Shown: piece by piece, positions 2,061 to 45,155 of the stretch
Numbering within the stretch: position 1 is the stretch's first letter
How the letters are laid out: each line of letters starts with the position of its first letter
NCBI GenBank assembly: GCA_018242585.1
Contig: JAFEBQ010000027.1
Span: forward strand, 62,001 to 126,000
Source: Planctomycetota bacterium
Lineage (GTDB): Bacteria; Planctomycetota; Planctomycetia; Pirellulales; PNKZ01
Reading direction: 5' to 3'
DNA length: 64,000 nt
Made by a program: the position numbers and the translations under genes
Notes under the pieces: generated by a model
Told to the model about the DNA's origin: nothing
The model's input: the letters and a program-made list of their open reading frames with translations, nothing else
The model's database searches: none

Positions 2061-3283
2061 TTGAACAACTCGGCGGGGTCGGCTGACATCAAGCGTCGCA
2101 GGGCAAACAGTGACGACACCACGCACATTACCGCGGTCAGCGTGAACACACCGGCGGCCTTGCCCAAGGTCATGGTCAACGGCAGCCCCGTGACCATCGA
2201 CAACACCTGATACAATAACCACGACGCGATGCCCGCGGGGACAAAAGCCATCGCCGACAGGAGAATTGCCTGGGAAATGACTACGGCCAGGAAGTACCGC
2301 GGCCGATAGCCCATGGCCATCAGCGTGGCGTACTCGGGCAGATGGTCGCTGACGTCGGCGTACAGAACCTGGTAACAGATGATCGCCCCGACAATGAAGC
2401 CCAGGATCGTGCCGAACGTGAACACGTAACCGACCGGTGTGTTGCTTTGCCAGAATTCTTGCTCGCTGGCAATATATTCGCCCTTGGTTTTCACGGCCAC
2501 GTGCTGCGGCAAGCGAGCGCGGATGTCGGCTTGCACCTGACGAGTGTTTGCCTTGTCGGTCAGTTGCACCAGTCCCAGGTCGATCTGGTCCAATGGATTG
2601 CCCAGCAGCGGAATCGCGAACCAGTCGCGGAATGTTCGGTCGCTGACGACCACGGTGGCGTCGGTGGCGAAATCAGTCCCCACGCGAAACAGCCCCACGA
2701 TGGGAACCTTATGGCCGGTGTGGGTGGCCGTCTCGCCCGCCTTGGGGCGGCCATAATCACCCTTTGACAATTCATCGAACAGGACTGCGTTTGGTTCGGC
2801 AAGCCGCGGCGCTAGTCGCGTGATGGTGTCGTCTTTGAACGCTGGCTGCGCTGGGTCAAAGGCCACGGTGCGCACCGGCAAGGCGCGCGAGCCGGGTTGG
2901 TTGGCCCGCCACGTCGAGCGCTGCGTCTCGACATACAGGGGGACCACGCGAGCGACGCCCGACACTCCTTGCGCCTGGAACAACACCGACCGATCAAAGC
3001 GTTCGTGCATCAGCAGCGTGAGCCGACTTTTCTTGACCAGGATGATGTCGGCGTTCAGCTTGTTGGGCAGGGCGACGGTGCTTTCGATCAGCGCGGAGCG
3101 GAACCCAAATTGCATGAACATCAATAGCACCGCAAAACCAACCCCGGCCAACGCCAACGCCAGTCGGCGACGATCGTAGGTCAGGTTTTTCCAGGCCAAC
3201 GGCGTGCGCACGCGCCGGCCCGAGCGCCGCGCCGTGGTGGAGGCGGGCGTTTGGGCGACATCGATCGGAAGCGCGGACGCCAT
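2057..3283 (-). CDS. FtsX/DevC-like ABC exporter permease, second copy
   Basis: 408 residues from the ATG at 3283; the frame extends to 3331 but that would overlap the upstream gene. It has the MacB/DevC architecture: a cytosolic N-terminus, one membrane helix (about residues 45-65, AGVGFAVLLMFMQFGF), a ~200-residue periplasmic domain, then three C-terminal helices of the FtsX core domain. It ends SADPAELFK, closely matching the end of the neighbouring permease (SVDPADLFN). It is clearly a paralogue of the gene at 3303-4526 (shared N-terminal TPLA.+NL block and the MQ.GF segment). It is translationally linked to the ATPase by a 4-base overlap. Likely role: one half of a heterodimeric permease working with the HlyD-type adaptor. 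Confidence 0.88.
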   Translation of the reverse strand: MASALPIDVAQTPASTTARRSGRRVRTPLAWKNLTYDRRRLALALAGVGFAVLLMFMQFGFRSALIESTVALPNKLNADIILVKKSRLTLLMHERFDRSVLFQAQGVSGVARVVPLYVETQRSTWRANQPGSRALPVRTVAFDPAQPAFKDDTITRLAPRLAEPNAVLFDELSKGDYGRPKAGETATHTGHKVPIVGLFRVGTDFATDATVVVSDRTFRDWFAIPLLGNPLDQIDLGLVQLTDKANTRQVQADIRARLPQHVAVKTKGEYIASEQEFWQSNTPVGYVFTFGTILGFIVGAIICYQVLYADVSDHLPEYATLMAMGYRPRYFLAVVISQAILLSAMAFVPAGIASWLLYQVLSMVTGLPLTMTLGKAAGVFTLTAVMCVVSSLFALRRLMSADPAELFK

Positions 3284-3302
3284 GCGATGCTTTACCAGCA
3301 AG

Positions 3303-4526
3303 TCAGTTGAACAAATCGGCCGGGTCGACACTGCGCAGCTTGCGAATTGCCAACTGCCCAGACGCCAGGCACATTCCCACGCAAATCAAAAAGACGCTCG
3401 ACGCTAGCTGCCAGGTCATTTCCATGGGCAAGTTCGCCTCGGCCGCGGCCATGCGAAACAAGAAACTCGCGGTGATCAACCCCGGCAGGAAACCGGCCAC
3501 GGCCAGAATCACCGCTTGCATGACCACCGTGCGCGCCAGATAACGCGGCGTGTATCCCATGGCCGCCAAGGTGGCGTACTCGGCGATCCGCCGGGCGATG
3601 TCGCTCGACAGCACTTGATAAACCACCCCCATGCCGACCAGCAGCGCGACCAGCACGCCCAAACCAAAGATAATCCCCACCTGGGTTTTTACCACCCAGT
3701 GATATTGCTCTTCATAGTCCAGTTGATCGTGCGTCAGCACCCAAGTGTCGGCCGGAAGCGCGGCGGTCAGTTGCTTGGCAACTTGATTGACATCGAACTT
3801 CGGATCAACGCGCAGCAGCCCCATGCTCATCCGATCCGGAGACCAGAAGCTGAGAATCTGGCGGAACGTGTTCTCGCTCATGGTGGCGCCGCCGTTGGCG
3901 CTGAAGCCGGTGCCCATCGAATACGTGCCCACGACCTCGACGGCCGTGCCACCCAGTTCGGTCTGCATGCCTGGCTGGGGATTGCCGAATTCATCGCGCG
4001 AGCGCCGATCGATCAGCACGCGCCCGGGAAGGCGCAGCGCCTCGCGTTGGCGATCGATCTCCTCGGATGTGAAGGTCTTGTCGTCAGGATCGAAGCCTAG
4101 CAACATCATGCTCCGCCGCTTGCCCAACGACCGGTCGGGGTGCAGCCACATCTGGAAACCAATATAGAATGGCCGCGCGGCGGCGACGCCTGGCACGTTG
4201 GCCGCCTGTTCCAGTCGTTGCCGCGGCAGATCGCCAGGCTTGCCCAAGTGCAGATAGTCGACCGAGACCAGCGCGATCTGGAAATCGAGTTGCTTGTATG
4301 TCAGTGTCGCGGTTGTGACCACCGAGAAGAAGAAGCCGAGTTGCATCAAGATCAGCACGACGGCAAAGGCCACGCCGATCATGGCCACGCCGGTGCGCAG
4401 CTTTTCGTGCAGCAGATTGCGCAGCGCCAGCGGCGTGCGCGGCGGGCGTCCGGCTTGGCGTTGGCCGAGAGGCTTGGCGACGTCCAACGTCAAAGAAGCC
4501 GGTTGTGAAGTGTCGGTCATCGCCAT
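3303..4526 (-). CDS. FtsX/DevC-like ABC exporter permease, first copy
   Basis: 407 residues (an ATG two codons in, at 4520, is an alternative start). Same topology as its downstream paralogue: N-terminal helix (GVAFAVVLILMQLGFFFSV), a large periplasmic domain, and three C-terminal helices with IIFGLGVLVALLVGMGVVYQ and AVILAVAGFLPGLITASFLF visible. It follows the adaptor gene by 16 bases and precedes the second permease by 19 bases, so all four genes are probably one transcript. DevBCA exporters of cyanobacteria normally have one DevC subunit; two adjacent, diverged copies suggest a heterodimer. The substrate is unknown. Confidence 0.88.
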   Translation of the reverse strand: MAMTDTSQPASLTLDVAKPLGQRQAGRPPRTPLALRNLLHEKLRTGVAMIGVAFAVVLILMQLGFFFSVVTTATLTYKQLDFQIALVSVDYLHLGKPGDLPRQRLEQAANVPGVAAARPFYIGFQMWLHPDRSLGKRRSMMLLGFDPDDKTFTSEEIDRQREALRLPGRVLIDRRSRDEFGNPQPGMQTELGGTAVEVVGTYSMGTGFSANGGATMSENTFRQILSFWSPDRMSMGLLRVDPKFDVNQVAKQLTAALPADTWVLTHDQLDYEEQYHWVVKTQVGIIFGLGVLVALLVGMGVVYQVLSSDIARRIAEYATLAAMGYTPRYLARTVVMQAVILAVAGFLPGLITASFLFRMAAAEANLPMEMTWQLASSVFLICVGMCLASGQLAIRKLRSVDPADLFN

Positions 4527-36481: not shown

Positions 36482-37432
36482 ATGAAGTGTTTCGTATTCG
36501 GTTCGCGTTCGGGGGCCGGCGCTGTGCGAGTCAACGCCCGTCAGGTCGGGTTCGCGGTGTTGGCCGGGGTGACGATTCTTTTCGCGTATTCCACGACGGT
36601 TTTGGCCCAGGAAAGCCTGCTGGGCATGCCGACCAGCGCCGCCACGCAGAGCGGCCTGCTGGTGATTGTCGGCGGTGGCAACCTGCCCGAGGAAGCCGAC
36701 AACGCCTTCTACCAGCACGCCGGCGGGGCCCATTCGCGGCTGGTGCTGATACCGAGCGCCTATCCGTTCTCAAGTCGTGAGGGAATGGAAAGCTATTACA
36801 GCGCCTGGTCCGGCGCCGACTGCGAAACATTCGATTTTCTCGACGCTAGCACTCGCGAAGAGGCCGACAGCGACGAGTTTGTGAAGCCGCTGTTAAAGGC
36901 GACCGGCGTGTGGATCGGCGGCGGCGTGCAAGGGCGCTTGTCCGATCTGTATACCGGCACCAAGGTCGAAGCAGCCCTGAAAGGGGTCCTCGAGCGCGGC
37001 GGCGTCGTCGGCGGCACCTCGGCCGGCGCGGCCATTCTTTCGCAAACGATGATCCGCCAGGGTTCGCAAGAGGTGGTCGTCGGCCGCGGGTTCTCGATGT
37101 TGAAGAACGCCGTCATCGATCAACACTTCAGCCAGCGCCGCCGCCAGGGGCGACTGAATAAGGTCATCTCGGACCACTCGCCGCTGATCGGCCTGGGCAT
37201 CGACGAATCGACCGCCCTGCTGGTCCAAGGGGACGAGGTCCGCGTGGTCGGCGAAGGGGAAGTGACCGTCTGTGTCAGCAACAAAAAGAAACAGGTCGAG
37301 TGGACCCGCAAACTCGAAAGCGGCGCCAAGGCGCGGTTCAAGCCCGTGAAGCAGCAAGCCGAACCATCACCGGTGGACGTCGAACTAATCGTCGCCAAGG
37401 CGGGGGAAGAAGGCGGCGGGGCGAGGGACTAG
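36482..37432 (+). CDS. Cyanophycinase / peptidase S51 family, exported
   Basis: 316 residues; AAGGAGG at 36465-36471 lies 10 bases upstream of the ATG. N-terminal hydrophobic segment VGFAVLAGVTILFAYSTTVL then AQE suggests export. The S51 nucleophile motif is VGGTSAGAAIL; other blocks are LLVIVGGGNLPEEADNAF, VWIGGGVQGRL and DQHFSQRRRQGRL. Cyanophycinase hydrolyses the Arg-Asp storage polymer; exported relatives probably release dipeptides for food. No cyanophycin synthetase gene is in the window. Confidence 0.92.
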   Translation: MKCFVFGSRSGAGAVRVNARQVGFAVLAGVTILFAYSTTVLAQESLLGMPTSAATQSGLLVIVGGGNLPEEADNAFYQHAGGAHSRLVLIPSAYPFSSREGMESYYSAWSGADCETFDFLDASTREEADSDEFVKPLLKATGVWIGGGVQGRLSDLYTGTKVEAALKGVLERGGVVGGTSAGAAILSQTMIRQGSQEVVVGRGFSMLKNAVIDQHFSQRRRQGRLNKVISDHSPLIGLGIDESTALLVQGDEVRVVGEGEVTVCVSNKKKQVEWTRKLESGAKARFKPVKQQAEPSPVDVELIVAKAGEEGGGARD

Positions 37433-38071: not shown

Positions 38072-40975
38072 TTACTTGTCGAGTTGCTCCGCAGCTTCGA
38101 CCGCGGCGGCTTGGAACGCTTCGCGCATGGGCGAGCCGTCGCTGTTCATCTTGGCACGTTGCAGCAGCATGACAAAGATCATCTGCCGCTGCGGATCAAC
38201 CCAACCCTGGGTGCCGAACGCGCCGCCGTGGCCGTAGGTGCCCGGCGAAAGCATCCGCGCCACTCCTTGCGGCTCGCGGACCACGCACCAGCCCAGGCCC
38301 CAGCCACAACCCGGCACGAAGCCGGCTTTCAGGTCGCCGGTTTGAATCGACGTCATCTCGGCAATCCCAAACCGCGAGACAATCGGCGAGCCGTCAAGCG
38401 CGCCGCCGTTGAGGATCGCCTGGTAAAACCGTCCCATGTCCGTCGCCGTCGAGAACAAGCCCCCCGACGGGTTCGCCGTCCGGCCGGGTGAAAGATCGGT
38501 GAGCCAATGCGTCGTCGGCTGCAACTTGCCGCTGGTTTCGTCGCGCTCGTATAGCTTGGCGATTCGCGACTGCTGGTCCTTGGTCGGGAAGAACGTCGTG
38601 TCGGTCATGCCCAGCGGCTTGAAGATCTTGTCGGCCAGATAGTTCTCGTACGGCTGCCCCGAGACCACCTCGACGATTCGTCCACAGATCGTCAGGCCCG
38701 GGCCATACTTCCACGCGTTGCCGGGTTCAAAGGCCAACGTCCGCCCGGCCATTTTACTGGCCGTCTCGGCCAAGGTCCCCAGGTTTTGCTGGTCCCCTGA
38801 CAGGCCCGACGTGTGCGTCAGCAAATCGCGAATCGTGATCTCGCGCTGCGGCGGGCCGGCGGCCAGCTTGACGTCCTTGAACTCGGGAATGTATTTCGAG
38901 GCCGCGTCGTCGATCGCCAGCTTCCCTTCTTCGCTCAGCATCATGATCGCCGTCGCGGTGATCGGCTTGGTCATCGACGCCACGGCAAACAGGGCGTCGG
39001 TCTTCATCGGCGCGCGTGTTTCCAGGTCGCTTACGCCCACGGGGGAAAGATGGACCACCTTGCCGCGCTGGGCCACCAACATGACCGCCCCGGCGATCTG
39101 CCCCTCGTCGACGAACTTTTGCATCCGCTCGGGCACGCGCGCCCAAGCGACTTTCGGATCGGCTTTGGGCCCGGCGGCCGCCGCGTCGTTCGACTTCTCG
39201 TCGGCGTCATAGACGACCAGCCCGCCAACCACCGTCAACAGCGCCCGCAGCGCGGGAATCTTGGCTTCGTCACAGACAAAGTAATCGTCGGTCAACACCG
39301 CCAGATCGCCAAGCTTGCCGACTTCGAGCGTCCCTTTCTTCTCGTCGTCAAAATGGAGCCAGGCCGCGTCCTGGGTCATCATCCTTAGTGCGTCGGTGCG
39401 CGAGACGCGCTGGTCGGCGCCGATCACCTTGCCACCCTCGGTGCGGCGCGACACGGCCGCGTACATCGTCAAAAACGGGTTGTAAGGATTCAGCGAGCTA
39501 TCAGGATCGAACCCTTGCATGTGGTCCGAGTTCAAGGCCACGTGGACGCCCGCCTTGCGCCAGCGATTCACGCCGATGAAGGTTTCGATTCGCGATTGGC
39601 CCAAAGCGTCGGCCAGCGCGTCGCCGTCTTTATAGAACCAGGCGGTTTGCGTATCGACACAGACGCCGAGTTTCGCTGCCCGCGCAGCACCATCAAGCGT
39701 GGGAAAGTACGCGTGAATCAGCGTGAACCGCCGCTCGCTAATCGGCGCATCGGCTGCGGCCGCCTCGACGGCGTCGAGCGCGATGTCCACGCCCGCGTCC
39801 CCCGTGACGTGCGTACTCATTTGCCAGCCCAACATGTTGCCAGCGCGGATCGTGGCCCGCACGCGTTCGGCATCGACCTGCAACAACCCGCGATACGACG
39901 GATCGCTCAAGCCGTACAGCCCGAACGCCTGGGCGCCGTACGGCTCGCGCAAATAGGCGGTGCCGTACAACACACCACCGTCGATGCTGAACTTCAGCGG
40001 CCCGACCTTGACCCAGTCGTCACCCTCGCGGGGCTTGATCGGCAGGGCGGCAATTGTCTTCTTGGCCGTTTCGACCGAATCGTGGGCGGGTACGCGAATG
40101 GTCACCGTCGTTCGGGCAGTCAGACGCTTCTGCTCACGCAACCTCTGATAAGTGCGCATGCCGTCCACGCTTGAGCCTCGATCCGTGATGCTGGTGATCC
40201 CGGTTCGGTTGTAGGCGTGGATCAGCCGTTCGAGGCTGCCGAGCGTCTGCTCAACCGTGGGCTTTTTGCTCGGCATGAACTTGGCTGTCAGTGCGCCGGC
40301 GTCTTCGAGCACGCCGGTCAGCTGGCCCGCGGCGTCAAGGACGATGCGCCCTCCCTTGGGGGCTTCGGTCTGGGGGGTGATACCTGCCGCGCGGAGGGCC
40401 GCGCTGTTCAAGATTTGCACCTGGCGATTGGCGTATTGCCAGATGAACACCACCGGGCGGTCGGGGGCCGCGGCGTCCAGGTCGGCGCGGTTCGGCATTC
40501 GTCGCTCGGCAATCCGCGTGACATCGACGCGTGGCAAGCGAATCCACACATCGGCCGCGGTCTTGGATACTTGCTCGCGAACCCACTGTTGAATCTCGGC
40601 GATCGAGTTGAGCTGCACGAAGGCCTGCGTCACTTCGCCCTGCGCGGCCCCGAGCGGATGCAGGTGTGTTTCGTTGATGCCTGGGATGACCGTGCGACCA
40701 CCCGCGCGATAGACGCGTGTCGACGGGCCGATGAAACCCTGAGCGCCGGCGCTGGTGCCCACGTAGACCAGCCGTTCGTTGCGCACGGCCAGGGCTTCGA
40801 CAACGGTGTCTTGGGCATCGAGCGTGTGAACGCGGCCATCGAGCAAGACAAAGTCCGCTGGCTCGGTCGCGGCCCGGACGGAATGCGCGCCCAGGAGCGC
40901 GCTCGAGAGCGCCAGCATGGCCGCCAGAAAGAGATGTGATGAACGAGCAAGTAAGCGGCGCGCGGTGAACATCAT
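38072..40975 (-). CDS. Exported fusion: YtcJ-like amidohydrolase + class C beta-lactamase/serine hydrolase
   Basis: 967 residues from the ATG at 40975 (AGGAAG upstream); the frame extends to 41191 but without coding character. Signal peptide LFLAAMLALSSALLGAHS then VRA. Residues ~35-600 are an amidohydrolase_3/YtcJ domain (metal motif THLHPLG, later ITDRGSSVDGM and HALNSDHM-type loop VALNSDHMQGF). Residues ~615-960 are a beta-lactamase/transpeptidase-like domain with Ser667 and Lys670 in the SxxK motif ASMTKP and a C-terminal HGGAFG. One reading frame covers both with no gap. An in-frame fusion of these two hydrolases suggests consecutive or joint hydrolysis of one substrate. Confidence 0.9.
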   Translation of the reverse strand: MMFTARRLLARSSHLFLAAMLALSSALLGAHSVRAATEPADFVLLDGRVHTLDAQDTVVEALAVRNERLVYVGTSAGAQGFIGPSTRVYRAGGRTVIPGINETHLHPLGAAQGEVTQAFVQLNSIAEIQQWVREQVSKTAADVWIRLPRVDVTRIAERRMPNRADLDAAAPDRPVVFIWQYANRQVQILNSAALRAAGITPQTEAPKGGRIVLDAAGQLTGVLEDAGALTAKFMPSKKPTVEQTLGSLERLIHAYNRTGITSITDRGSSVDGMRTYQRLREQKRLTARTTVTIRVPAHDSVETAKKTIAALPIKPREGDDWVKVGPLKFSIDGGVLYGTAYLREPYGAQAFGLYGLSDPSYRGLLQVDAERVRATIRAGNMLGWQMSTHVTGDAGVDIALDAVEAAAADAPISERRFTLIHAYFPTLDGAARAAKLGVCVDTQTAWFYKDGDALADALGQSRIETFIGVNRWRKAGVHVALNSDHMQGFDPDSSLNPYNPFLTMYAAVSRRTEGGKVIGADQRVSRTDALRMMTQDAAWLHFDDEKKGTLEVGKLGDLAVLTDDYFVCDEAKIPALRALLTVVGGLVVYDADEKSNDAAAAGPKADPKVAWARVPERMQKFVDEGQIAGAVMLVAQRGKVVHLSPVGVSDLETRAPMKTDALFAVASMTKPITATAIMMLSEEGKLAIDDAASKYIPEFKDVKLAAGPPQREITIRDLLTHTSGLSGDQQNLGTLAETASKMAGRTLAFEPGNAWKYGPGLTICGRIVEVVSGQPYENYLADKIFKPLGMTDTTFFPTKDQQSRIAKLYERDETSGKLQPTTHWLTDLSPGRTANPSGGLFSTATDMGRFYQAILNGGALDGSPIVSRFGIAEMTSIQTGDLKAGFVPGCGWGLGWCVVREPQGVARMLSPGTYGHGGAFGTQGWVDPQRQMIFVMLLQRAKMNSDGSPMREAFQAAAVEAAEQLDK

Positions 40976-43660: not shown

Positions 43661-44149
43661 TTAAGGAATCTCGGCGGGCCAATCGGTCGCGGCGGTCAAG
43701 ACGGCACCGAATTGCTCGAGCCCGCGGGCGTCGGCCTCGTCGAATCGTGCCAGCTTGGGGCTATCCAAATCGAGCACGCCGAGCAATCGCCCATCCGCGG
43801 TAACCAACGGCACGACGATCTCGGATTGCGAGGCCTCATCACAGGCGATGTGTCCGGGGAACTGATGCACGTCGGGCACGACGATCGTCTCACGCCGCGA
43901 GGCCGACGCGCCACAGACCCCGCGGCTCAGCTCGATATGCACGCATGCCGGCTTCCCTTGAAACGGCCCGACCGTCAAGCGCCCGGCGCGGAGCAGATAG
44001 AACCCGGCCCAATTCAAGTCGGGCAGTCGCAACCCGAGCAGGGCCGCGGCATTGGCCAGGTTGGCCAGCCAGTCTCGCTCGTCGGCCACGAGCCCCCGCA
44101 ACTCGCTGACGAGTTGCTCGTATTGTTCGGCCTTAGTCGCACCCTTCAT
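43661..44149 (-). CDS. msrC: GAF-domain free-methionine-(R)-sulfoxide reductase
   Basis: 162 residues from the ATG at 44149; the open frame upstream is a shadow. A single GAF domain with the three family cysteines in order: KPACVHI, RGVCGAS and HIACDEA. DLNWAGFYLL and SEIVVPLV are further conserved blocks. The enzyme reduces free methionine-R-sulfoxide with thioredoxin. It starts 11 bases after the PhyH-type oxygenase gene, so the pair is probably co-transcribed. Confidence 0.93.
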   Translation of the reverse strand: MKGATKAEQYEQLVSELRGLVADERDWLANLANAAALLGLRLPDLNWAGFYLLRAGRLTVGPFQGKPACVHIELSRGVCGASASRRETIVVPDVHQFPGHIACDEASQSEIVVPLVTADGRLLGVLDLDSPKLARFDEADARGLEQFGAVLTAATDWPAEIP

Positions 44150-44160
44150 CGTGCCACGCA

Positions 44161-44997
44161 CTACTCGGCGCTCGGCCGCGGCTGGTTTGCCCAATGGCCC
44201 GAGGGATCGCTGCCGGCCACCCACACTCCCTTGGCGTTCCAGCTTAGCCCGGCCCGCACGTCGGCGGCGCAATATCGGAGCGTCAGCCCGCAGCGGCGGC
44301 GGTCCGAATCGTTCGCCTCCGAGCCATGCAGCAGCAGATCGCTGTGCAAGGAAATCTGTCCGGCTTTCAGTTCGTCCTGGACAAAGCGGCCGTACTGTTC
44401 GGCGTTGTCGATCGTCTGGTTCAGCACGTTGTGTTCGTGGCTGTCGCTGGGGCGATAAGTCAAATGACCGTAGTGGTGCGAGCCCGCCAGAAAGTTCATG
44501 CAGCCGTTCTCGGCATCGGCGTCATCGATCGCCAGCCAGACGGTGACGGCCTTGCTCGGGGTGAGCGGCCAGTAGCTGGCGTCCTGATGCCAGGCCACCG
44601 CCTTGCCGTCGCGCGGCAGCTTGCAAAAGAAGTGCGAGCCCCAGGCGACGACATTCTCGCCGAGCAGATCCTTCACGTAGGCCACGATCTTCGCGTTGGT
44701 CAACAGATCGTAGACCGGACCATATTTCAGATGGGCGCTCGAAATCGAATAGCTGTTCGCGCCGGTCGCCAACACGCGGGCCAGCAAGTCGTCGAAGTAA
44801 GCCCGCACGCGCTCGGCTTCGGCCTGGTCGAAAATGGCGAAGCCCTTTAGGCAGCCGTCCCGGTTGAAGTCTTCGAGCTGTGACTGGCTAAGCACTTTGG
44901 GCGCGGGATTGGTGCTGGGATGAAAGCGCAGGTCGCGCTCCATCTGGTCGAGTTCCGCCTGATCGGGCGTCGACTTGAAGTTCATGGCCTGGGACAT
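44161..44997 (-). CDS. Phytanoyl-CoA dioxygenase (PhyH) family protein
   Basis: 278 residues from the ATG at 44997 (GGAG 9 bases upstream). Fe(II)/2-oxoglutarate facial triad visible: His and Asp in AWHQDASYWPL, distal His in LLLHGSEAND; the 2OG-binding Arg is likely in RRRCGLTLRY. Cytosolic. The family hydroxylates diverse small molecules; in planctomycetes there are many paralogues with unknown substrates. First gene of a series running to 37523. Confidence 0.9.
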   Translation of the reverse strand: MSQAMNFKSTPDQAELDQMERDLRFHPSTNPAPKVLSQSQLEDFNRDGCLKGFAIFDQAEAERVRAYFDDLLARVLATGANSYSISSAHLKYGPVYDLLTNAKIVAYVKDLLGENVVAWGSHFFCKLPRDGKAVAWHQDASYWPLTPSKAVTVWLAIDDADAENGCMNFLAGSHHYGHLTYRPSDSHEHNVLNQTIDNAEQYGRFVQDELKAGQISLHSDLLLHGSEANDSDRRRCGLTLRYCAADVRAGLSWNAKGVWVAGSDPSGHWANQPRPSAE

Positions 44998-45155
44998 GGA
45001 CGATTCGCTCCGCCGAGTGGGTTGGTGTTCGATGCTGTGCGAGAGCTGCGAGGTTGGCGCGTTTGCGTCGCGCGCTGGCAGCATCTAAATTTACCCGCTC
45101 AGGCTTCAAGACGCAAAACAATGCCTGCCCCGACGAATACCGCGGAGAGTGTTTG

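Follow-up and report, generated by a model that had tools for sequence, protein, structure and literature searches.

Among the YtcJ-like enzymes of the Amidohydro_3 family, the characterised members include the N-substituted formamide deformylase NfdA and metallo-bile-salt hydrolases. Class C beta-lactamases carry the YxN and KTG motifs. A further reference point is EstG, which, going by its name, we take to be a Caulobacter enzyme. The motifs of the family VIII carboxylesterases are given as SMTK, LxxxPGxxWxYS, IPE, PLGM, and DxxGxxxExxSG in PMC8399190, and PMC11389396 describes a cyclic hexamer of glucose as the substrate of EstG. Removal of the extra C-terminal domain from a metallo-bile-salt hydrolase, which is an amidohydrolase in the same broad group as the YtcJ-like enzymes, lowered activity about fourfold (PMC13081902). 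Here we describe a gene that joins an Amidohydro_3 domain and a beta-lactamase-fold domain in one reading frame (Table 1), in a window of 64,000 nucleotides (the whole stretch of DNA analysed) from a Planctomycetota bacterium. Judged by titles and abstracts, no paper on such a fusion was found in the literature searched.

Layout of the fused gene

The minus strand of the interval reads as 967 codons and a stop without a break, and the plus-strand reading of the same interval holds 8 stops. The sequence AGGA lies just upstream of a double ATG at the start of the gene. In the predicted structure, residues 2-11 and 13-33 form helices, at low confidence. An earlier note, made from the DNA letters, had described this interval as an in-frame fusion within a single exported polypeptide, with both active sites apparently intact. 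Its range proved correct, the strand, which it had left unnamed, is minus, and the single open frame with two Pfam domains bears out the fusion. The N-terminus resembles a signal peptide by eye, and export is predicted, in agreement with that description. Predicted catalytic residues were found in each half, and the numbering Ser667/Lys670 stands because SMTK begins at residue 667, THLHP beginning at 103. The junction had been placed near 39150, a position that adjoins the seam in Table 1.

Table 1. Features of the fused gene and its two flanking genes, in window coordinates
Feature	Residues	Position	Strand	Basis or remark
Fused gene: signal peptide, Amidohydro_3, linker, beta-lactamase-fold esterase	967 aa	38072..40975	-	
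Apparent signal peptide	1-36	40868..40975	-	by eye
Amidohydro_3 domain	91-589	39209..40705	-	Pfam
THLHP	103-107	40655..40669	-	predicted metal ligands, with K328, H389, H421, and D484
Linker and seam	about 590-611	about 39143..39208	-	
Beta-lactamase-fold domain	617-951	38123..39127	-	Pfam and fold match
SMTK	667-670	38966..38977	-	predicted nucleophile Ser667, with Lys670
Tyr757	757	38705..38707	-	third predicted catalytic residue
HGG	916-918	38222..38230	-	where the KTG of beta-lactamases would be expected
Downstream gene, lipoprotein-like	176 aa	37523..38053	-	LAGC, by eye
Upstream gene, LamG and N,N-dimethylformamidase-like domain	796 aa	41240..43630	-	

The amidohydrolase half

The first half matches Amidohydro_3 (PF07969) over profile positions 5-472 of 472 with an E-value of 7.8e-80 (Pfam), far beyond chance; the score of 270.1 bits against a gathering score of 29.7 places this whole-domain match within the family. 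The HxH, K, H, H, D metal-ligand set of Amidohydro_3 is present: H104, H106, K328, H389, H421, and D484, the predicted ligands, each occur in 29 of 29 distinct amidohydrolase homologues, and most of these positions align with 3icj. No characterised enzyme is among the closest solved chains (3icj, E 1.5e-14). The nearest amidohydrolases (59.5, 57.8, and 53.2% identity) are all stand-alone proteins. This half was poorly modelled, with just 2 of the 21 homologous rows covering it.

The esterase half

The second half matches the Beta-lactamase domain (PF00144) over profile positions 4-321 of 329 with an E-value of 2.7e-74 (Pfam), again far beyond chance. For each of its predicted catalytic residues, S667, K670, and Y757, conservation is nearly complete, at 120 of 121 distinct beta-lactamase-fold homologues. 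S667 and K670 supply the Ser nucleophile and the Lys of the family VIII motif SMTK, and LAFEPGNAWKYG, which includes Tyr757, fits the catalytic-Tyr motif LxxxPGxxWxYS with G in place of the final S. IPE and PLGM were also found, and TICGRIVEVVSG shows T for the first D of DxxGxxxExxSG. The YxN and KTG motifs of class C beta-lactamases are missing, with Y757-G-P and HGG in their places; at the first position of HGG, 81 of the 121 homologues have W and 36 have H. The NCBIfam profile bla_class_C scored 67.5 bits, far below its cut-off of 415.

The model of this half was confident (pLDDT of 90 or more in 26 of the 36 ten-residue blocks from residue 611). The fold search was run with residues 605-967 alone, because the amidohydrolase half was too poorly modelled. 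Two best matches were tied, 7pp3 (Z 47.4, rmsd 2.0, 358 residues aligned) and EstG 7u1c (Z 47.1, rmsd 2.0, 357 residues aligned), and 4ivi, titled a family VIII carboxylesterase, also showed the same fold (Z 45.1, rmsd 2.1, 350 residues aligned). By sequence and model fold together, the best solved relatives were EstG, the ester-hydrolase EH7, and a family VIII carboxylesterase. As judged from sequence and model, the second domain is closest to the family VIII carboxylesterases and EstG, and not to class C beta-lactamases. By analogy, the likeness to EstG hints that the domain may be an extracytoplasmic esterase, but it is no pointer to the substrate.

Nature of the seam

Among 30 distinct amidohydrolase ORFs, 26 end no more than 8 residues past the end of the alignment (query residue 585-596); of the other four, three have different C-terminal extensions and one runs off the end of its contig. 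A same-family amidohydrolase in genome G006 terminates as EKSN-stop, at the place where the fusion reads EKSND. The nearest stand-alone esterases begin with a signal-like N-terminus of their own, and a stretch of 40 residues or more precedes the aligned start in 113 of 122 distinct esterase ORFs, as measured on stop-to-stop frames in which untranslated leader is counted. In the fusion, about 15-20 residues separate the two homologies. The sole hydrophobic stretch by the seam is FVDEGQIAGAVMLVA (mean 1.3, 15-residue hydropathy), which lies inside the esterase domain, and the hydropathy of the other two frames across the seam never rises above 0. No frame over residues 580-645 contains the missing esterase signal peptide, and a one-base frameshift or lost stop was rejected as the origin of the long frame. 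The reason is that the seam is too short to hold a signal peptide for the esterase: if a stop had been lost by sequencing error, the signal-coding DNA would still be there, whereas a genomic deletion would have removed it, and this argues against such an error. The earlier note had stated that homologues encoded separately, with a stop at the junction, would reveal a frameshift or assembly error joining two genes. Separate homologues stopping there do exist (the 26 ORFs above), but a simple frameshift or lost stop does not explain the fusion.

An assembly chimera, in which the seam links two distant pieces of DNA, from one genome or from two organisms, would agree with the occurrence of the fusion in a single assembly of 56 contigs and with the closest homologues being separate genes. 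The join, however, is in frame, on one strand, and inside the 15-20 residues between natural domain ends, with the second signal peptide gone, and random joining would rarely produce such a seam. Composition and codon usage are also even across it: GC3 is 0.79 in the first half, 0.73 in the linker, and 0.84 in the second half, and the two halves differ in codon usage (distance 0.081) about as much as neighbouring genes do (0.07-0.10). We consider a chimera very unlikely.

Distribution

A search for the same fusion elsewhere, which the earlier note had proposed, found it in its own place alone: among all the genomes and loci searched it was met in its own genome only, and no second copy was seen. 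At strict E-values and with few candidates scored per genome, close matches to the amidohydrolase half were present in 19 of 392, 4 of 296, 2 of 59, and 2 of 240 genomes, and to the esterase half in 13 of 392; the sets overlap by shared genomes, and the counts include the fusion's own genome where it was sampled. No other member of the genus was among the matches listed. Of 131 relatives, 80 were compared, nearly all of the esterase type, and none was fused. Both halves in one ORF occurred at none of 12 loci with long open frames around other homologues; the Pfam scan covered 5 of these 12 loci and 5 further ones. Further long esterase-matching frames were found in G676, G677, and G678 among other genomes, on contigs with no amidohydrolase match listed. 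Of 1696 plasmid records that matched, none covered 80% of the query within a single place. For the amidohydrolase half, three stretches of viral contigs matched a pattern, and none was a relative.

Adjacent but separate genes for the two families, which had also been suggested as worth looking for, were found at locus L086 and at none of the other 38 of the 39 non-own amidohydrolase loci (a count with duplicates, at loci mostly flanked by about 1.5 kb). At L086 the adjoining genes are distant homologues of low identity, and among all 166 loci (duplicates included) this is the one place besides the fusion's own locus where the families occur together. At locus L109 of genome G053, an esterase homologue is split over two plus-strand frames (2999-4364 and 3688-4221), which may reflect a frameshift in the gene or a mistake in assembly. 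The gene is most likely a lineage-specific fusion of two unrelated hydrolases.

Other fusions were seen in both families. In sampled relatives the beta-lactamase-fold domain (PF00144) is joined to NamZ (L150 and L153), to 3keto-disac_hyd, a 3-keto-disaccharide hydrolase (L115), to PIG-L and FGE-sulfatase (L152), and to an AXE1-like domain (L158). The combination of a NamZ exo-muramidase with the beta-lactamase fold at L150 and L153 could suit peptidoglycan breakdown. Extensions of Amidohydro_3 comprise Kelch repeats at L126, in the other long frame (1005 residues) among the amidohydrolase matches, 288 residues without a Pfam match at L148, and 111 residues at L156. Both hydrolases of the present gene are of ordinary type, and their fusion is one more combination against this background; since related beta-lactamase-fold domains are fused to several hydrolases, the domain is promiscuous and Amidohydro_3 a further partner of it.

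Neighbouring genes

The lipoprotein-like gene begins 18 bp past the stop of the fusion and is possibly co-transcribed with it because of this short gap. It has no Pfam match and was found in none of the 195 other genomes of the order (1 of 196, its own). On the other side, the gene with the LamG and dimethylformamidase-like domains ends 264 bp ahead of the ATG of the fusion, and the solved chain closest to its product is N-acetyl-(R)-beta-phenylalanine acylase (E 1.3e-23). The iron ligands of dimethylformamidase are Y399, Y440, and E521 (PMC7686228), and a hand count on the alignment with 6lvb places Tyr, Tyr, and Glu at these positions in the product. A conserved neighbourhood of this gene was rejected as a candidate: all nine homologue loci, covered to at most 1.5 kb per side and in one case cut by the contig, were without an amidohydrolase or esterase match. 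Its homologue was likewise absent from the non-own amidohydrolase and esterase loci examined. Farther out, a cyanophycinase-type peptidase S51 is encoded on the plus strand at 36482-37432 (TIGR02069, 152 bits against a cut-off of 126.6), and at 43661-45084 on the minus strand a GAF-domain ORF (203 residues) overlaps a PhyH-family ORF (307 residues) of the same strand, whose listed starts may be too early.

Proposed origin and function

We think it probable that the gene is a real fusion of two exported hydrolases, joined by a deletion, in which each half is independently active and the benefit is co-export. Two genes on the same strand would have come to adjoin in an ancestor, and a deletion would then have taken out everything from the first stop through the spacer to the second signal sequence. 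The fused protein would be exported, its halves folding and acting independently. Going by family chemistry, the first half would be a binuclear-metal, carboxylated-lysine amidohydrolase that cuts an amide or related C-N bond, and the second would work as a family VIII-type esterase with Ser667, Lys670, and Tyr757 through an acyl-serine intermediate. The advantage would lie in equal amounts and joint export rather than in new chemistry. Our best guess is that the substrates are small N-acyl or O-acyl compounds that the cell scavenges outside its cytoplasm.

The earlier note had instead suggested sequential attack on one substrate, for example a peptidoglycan or siderophore-like compound. A bifunctional enzyme whose two sites act in sequence on one molecule, removing for instance an N-acyl and an O-acyl group, would make sense of the catalytic residues of both halves on one polypeptide, the neighbouring distant homologues at L086, and the amide-hydrolase homologue encoded upstream. 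Against this, the families occur together in just 1 of the 39 non-own amidohydrolase loci, the neighbouring genes are not conserved, and related esterase domains have several different fusion partners, which points to a loose association. We met no positive evidence for sequential attack and regard it as unlikely; nothing found points to peptidoglycan or a siderophore-like compound, and the solved structures nearest to the second domain are those of esterases. We give little credence to a two-site extracytoplasmic deacylase that would take N-acyl and O-acyl groups off one compound in an acylated-amine-degrading cassette with the upstream gene, whose product would be a third, iron-type amide hydrolase. 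That one half is mainly a structural or substrate-binding module, the other half alone mattering as an enzyme, would recall the roughly fourfold effect of the extra domain in the metallo-bile-salt hydrolase (PMC13081902), but the predicted catalytic residues are conserved in both halves, and this reading seems extremely improbable.

Given a real fusion of independently active hydrolases, Amidohydro_3 joins the several hydrolases that sampled relatives carry as partners of a beta-lactamase-fold domain. The label "beta-lactamase" on such a domain is by itself no sign of antibiotic resistance. Were both halves shown to act on one substrate, the gene could aid function assignment in two very large, mostly uncharacterised families.

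Comparison with known systems

The first half resembles the YtcJ-like Amidohydro_3 enzymes in its Pfam domain and its HxH, K, H, H, D set, and it differs from the known members in that its C-terminal partner is an esterase-type domain. Like the secreted metallo-bile-salt hydrolases, as described in PMC13081902, the fusion is apparently exported. The extensions of Amidohydro_3 at L126 and L148 differ from the present one in that the partner there is no recognised hydrolase, and other beta-lactamase-domain fusions of relatives differ in that the partner here is Amidohydro_3. The second half shares SMTK, IPE, PLGM, and the WxY context with the family VIII carboxylesterases and EstG and departs from the family VIII motifs in Y-G for Y-S and T for the D of DxxG (motifs from PMC8399190); unlike those enzymes, it is joined to an amidohydrolase.
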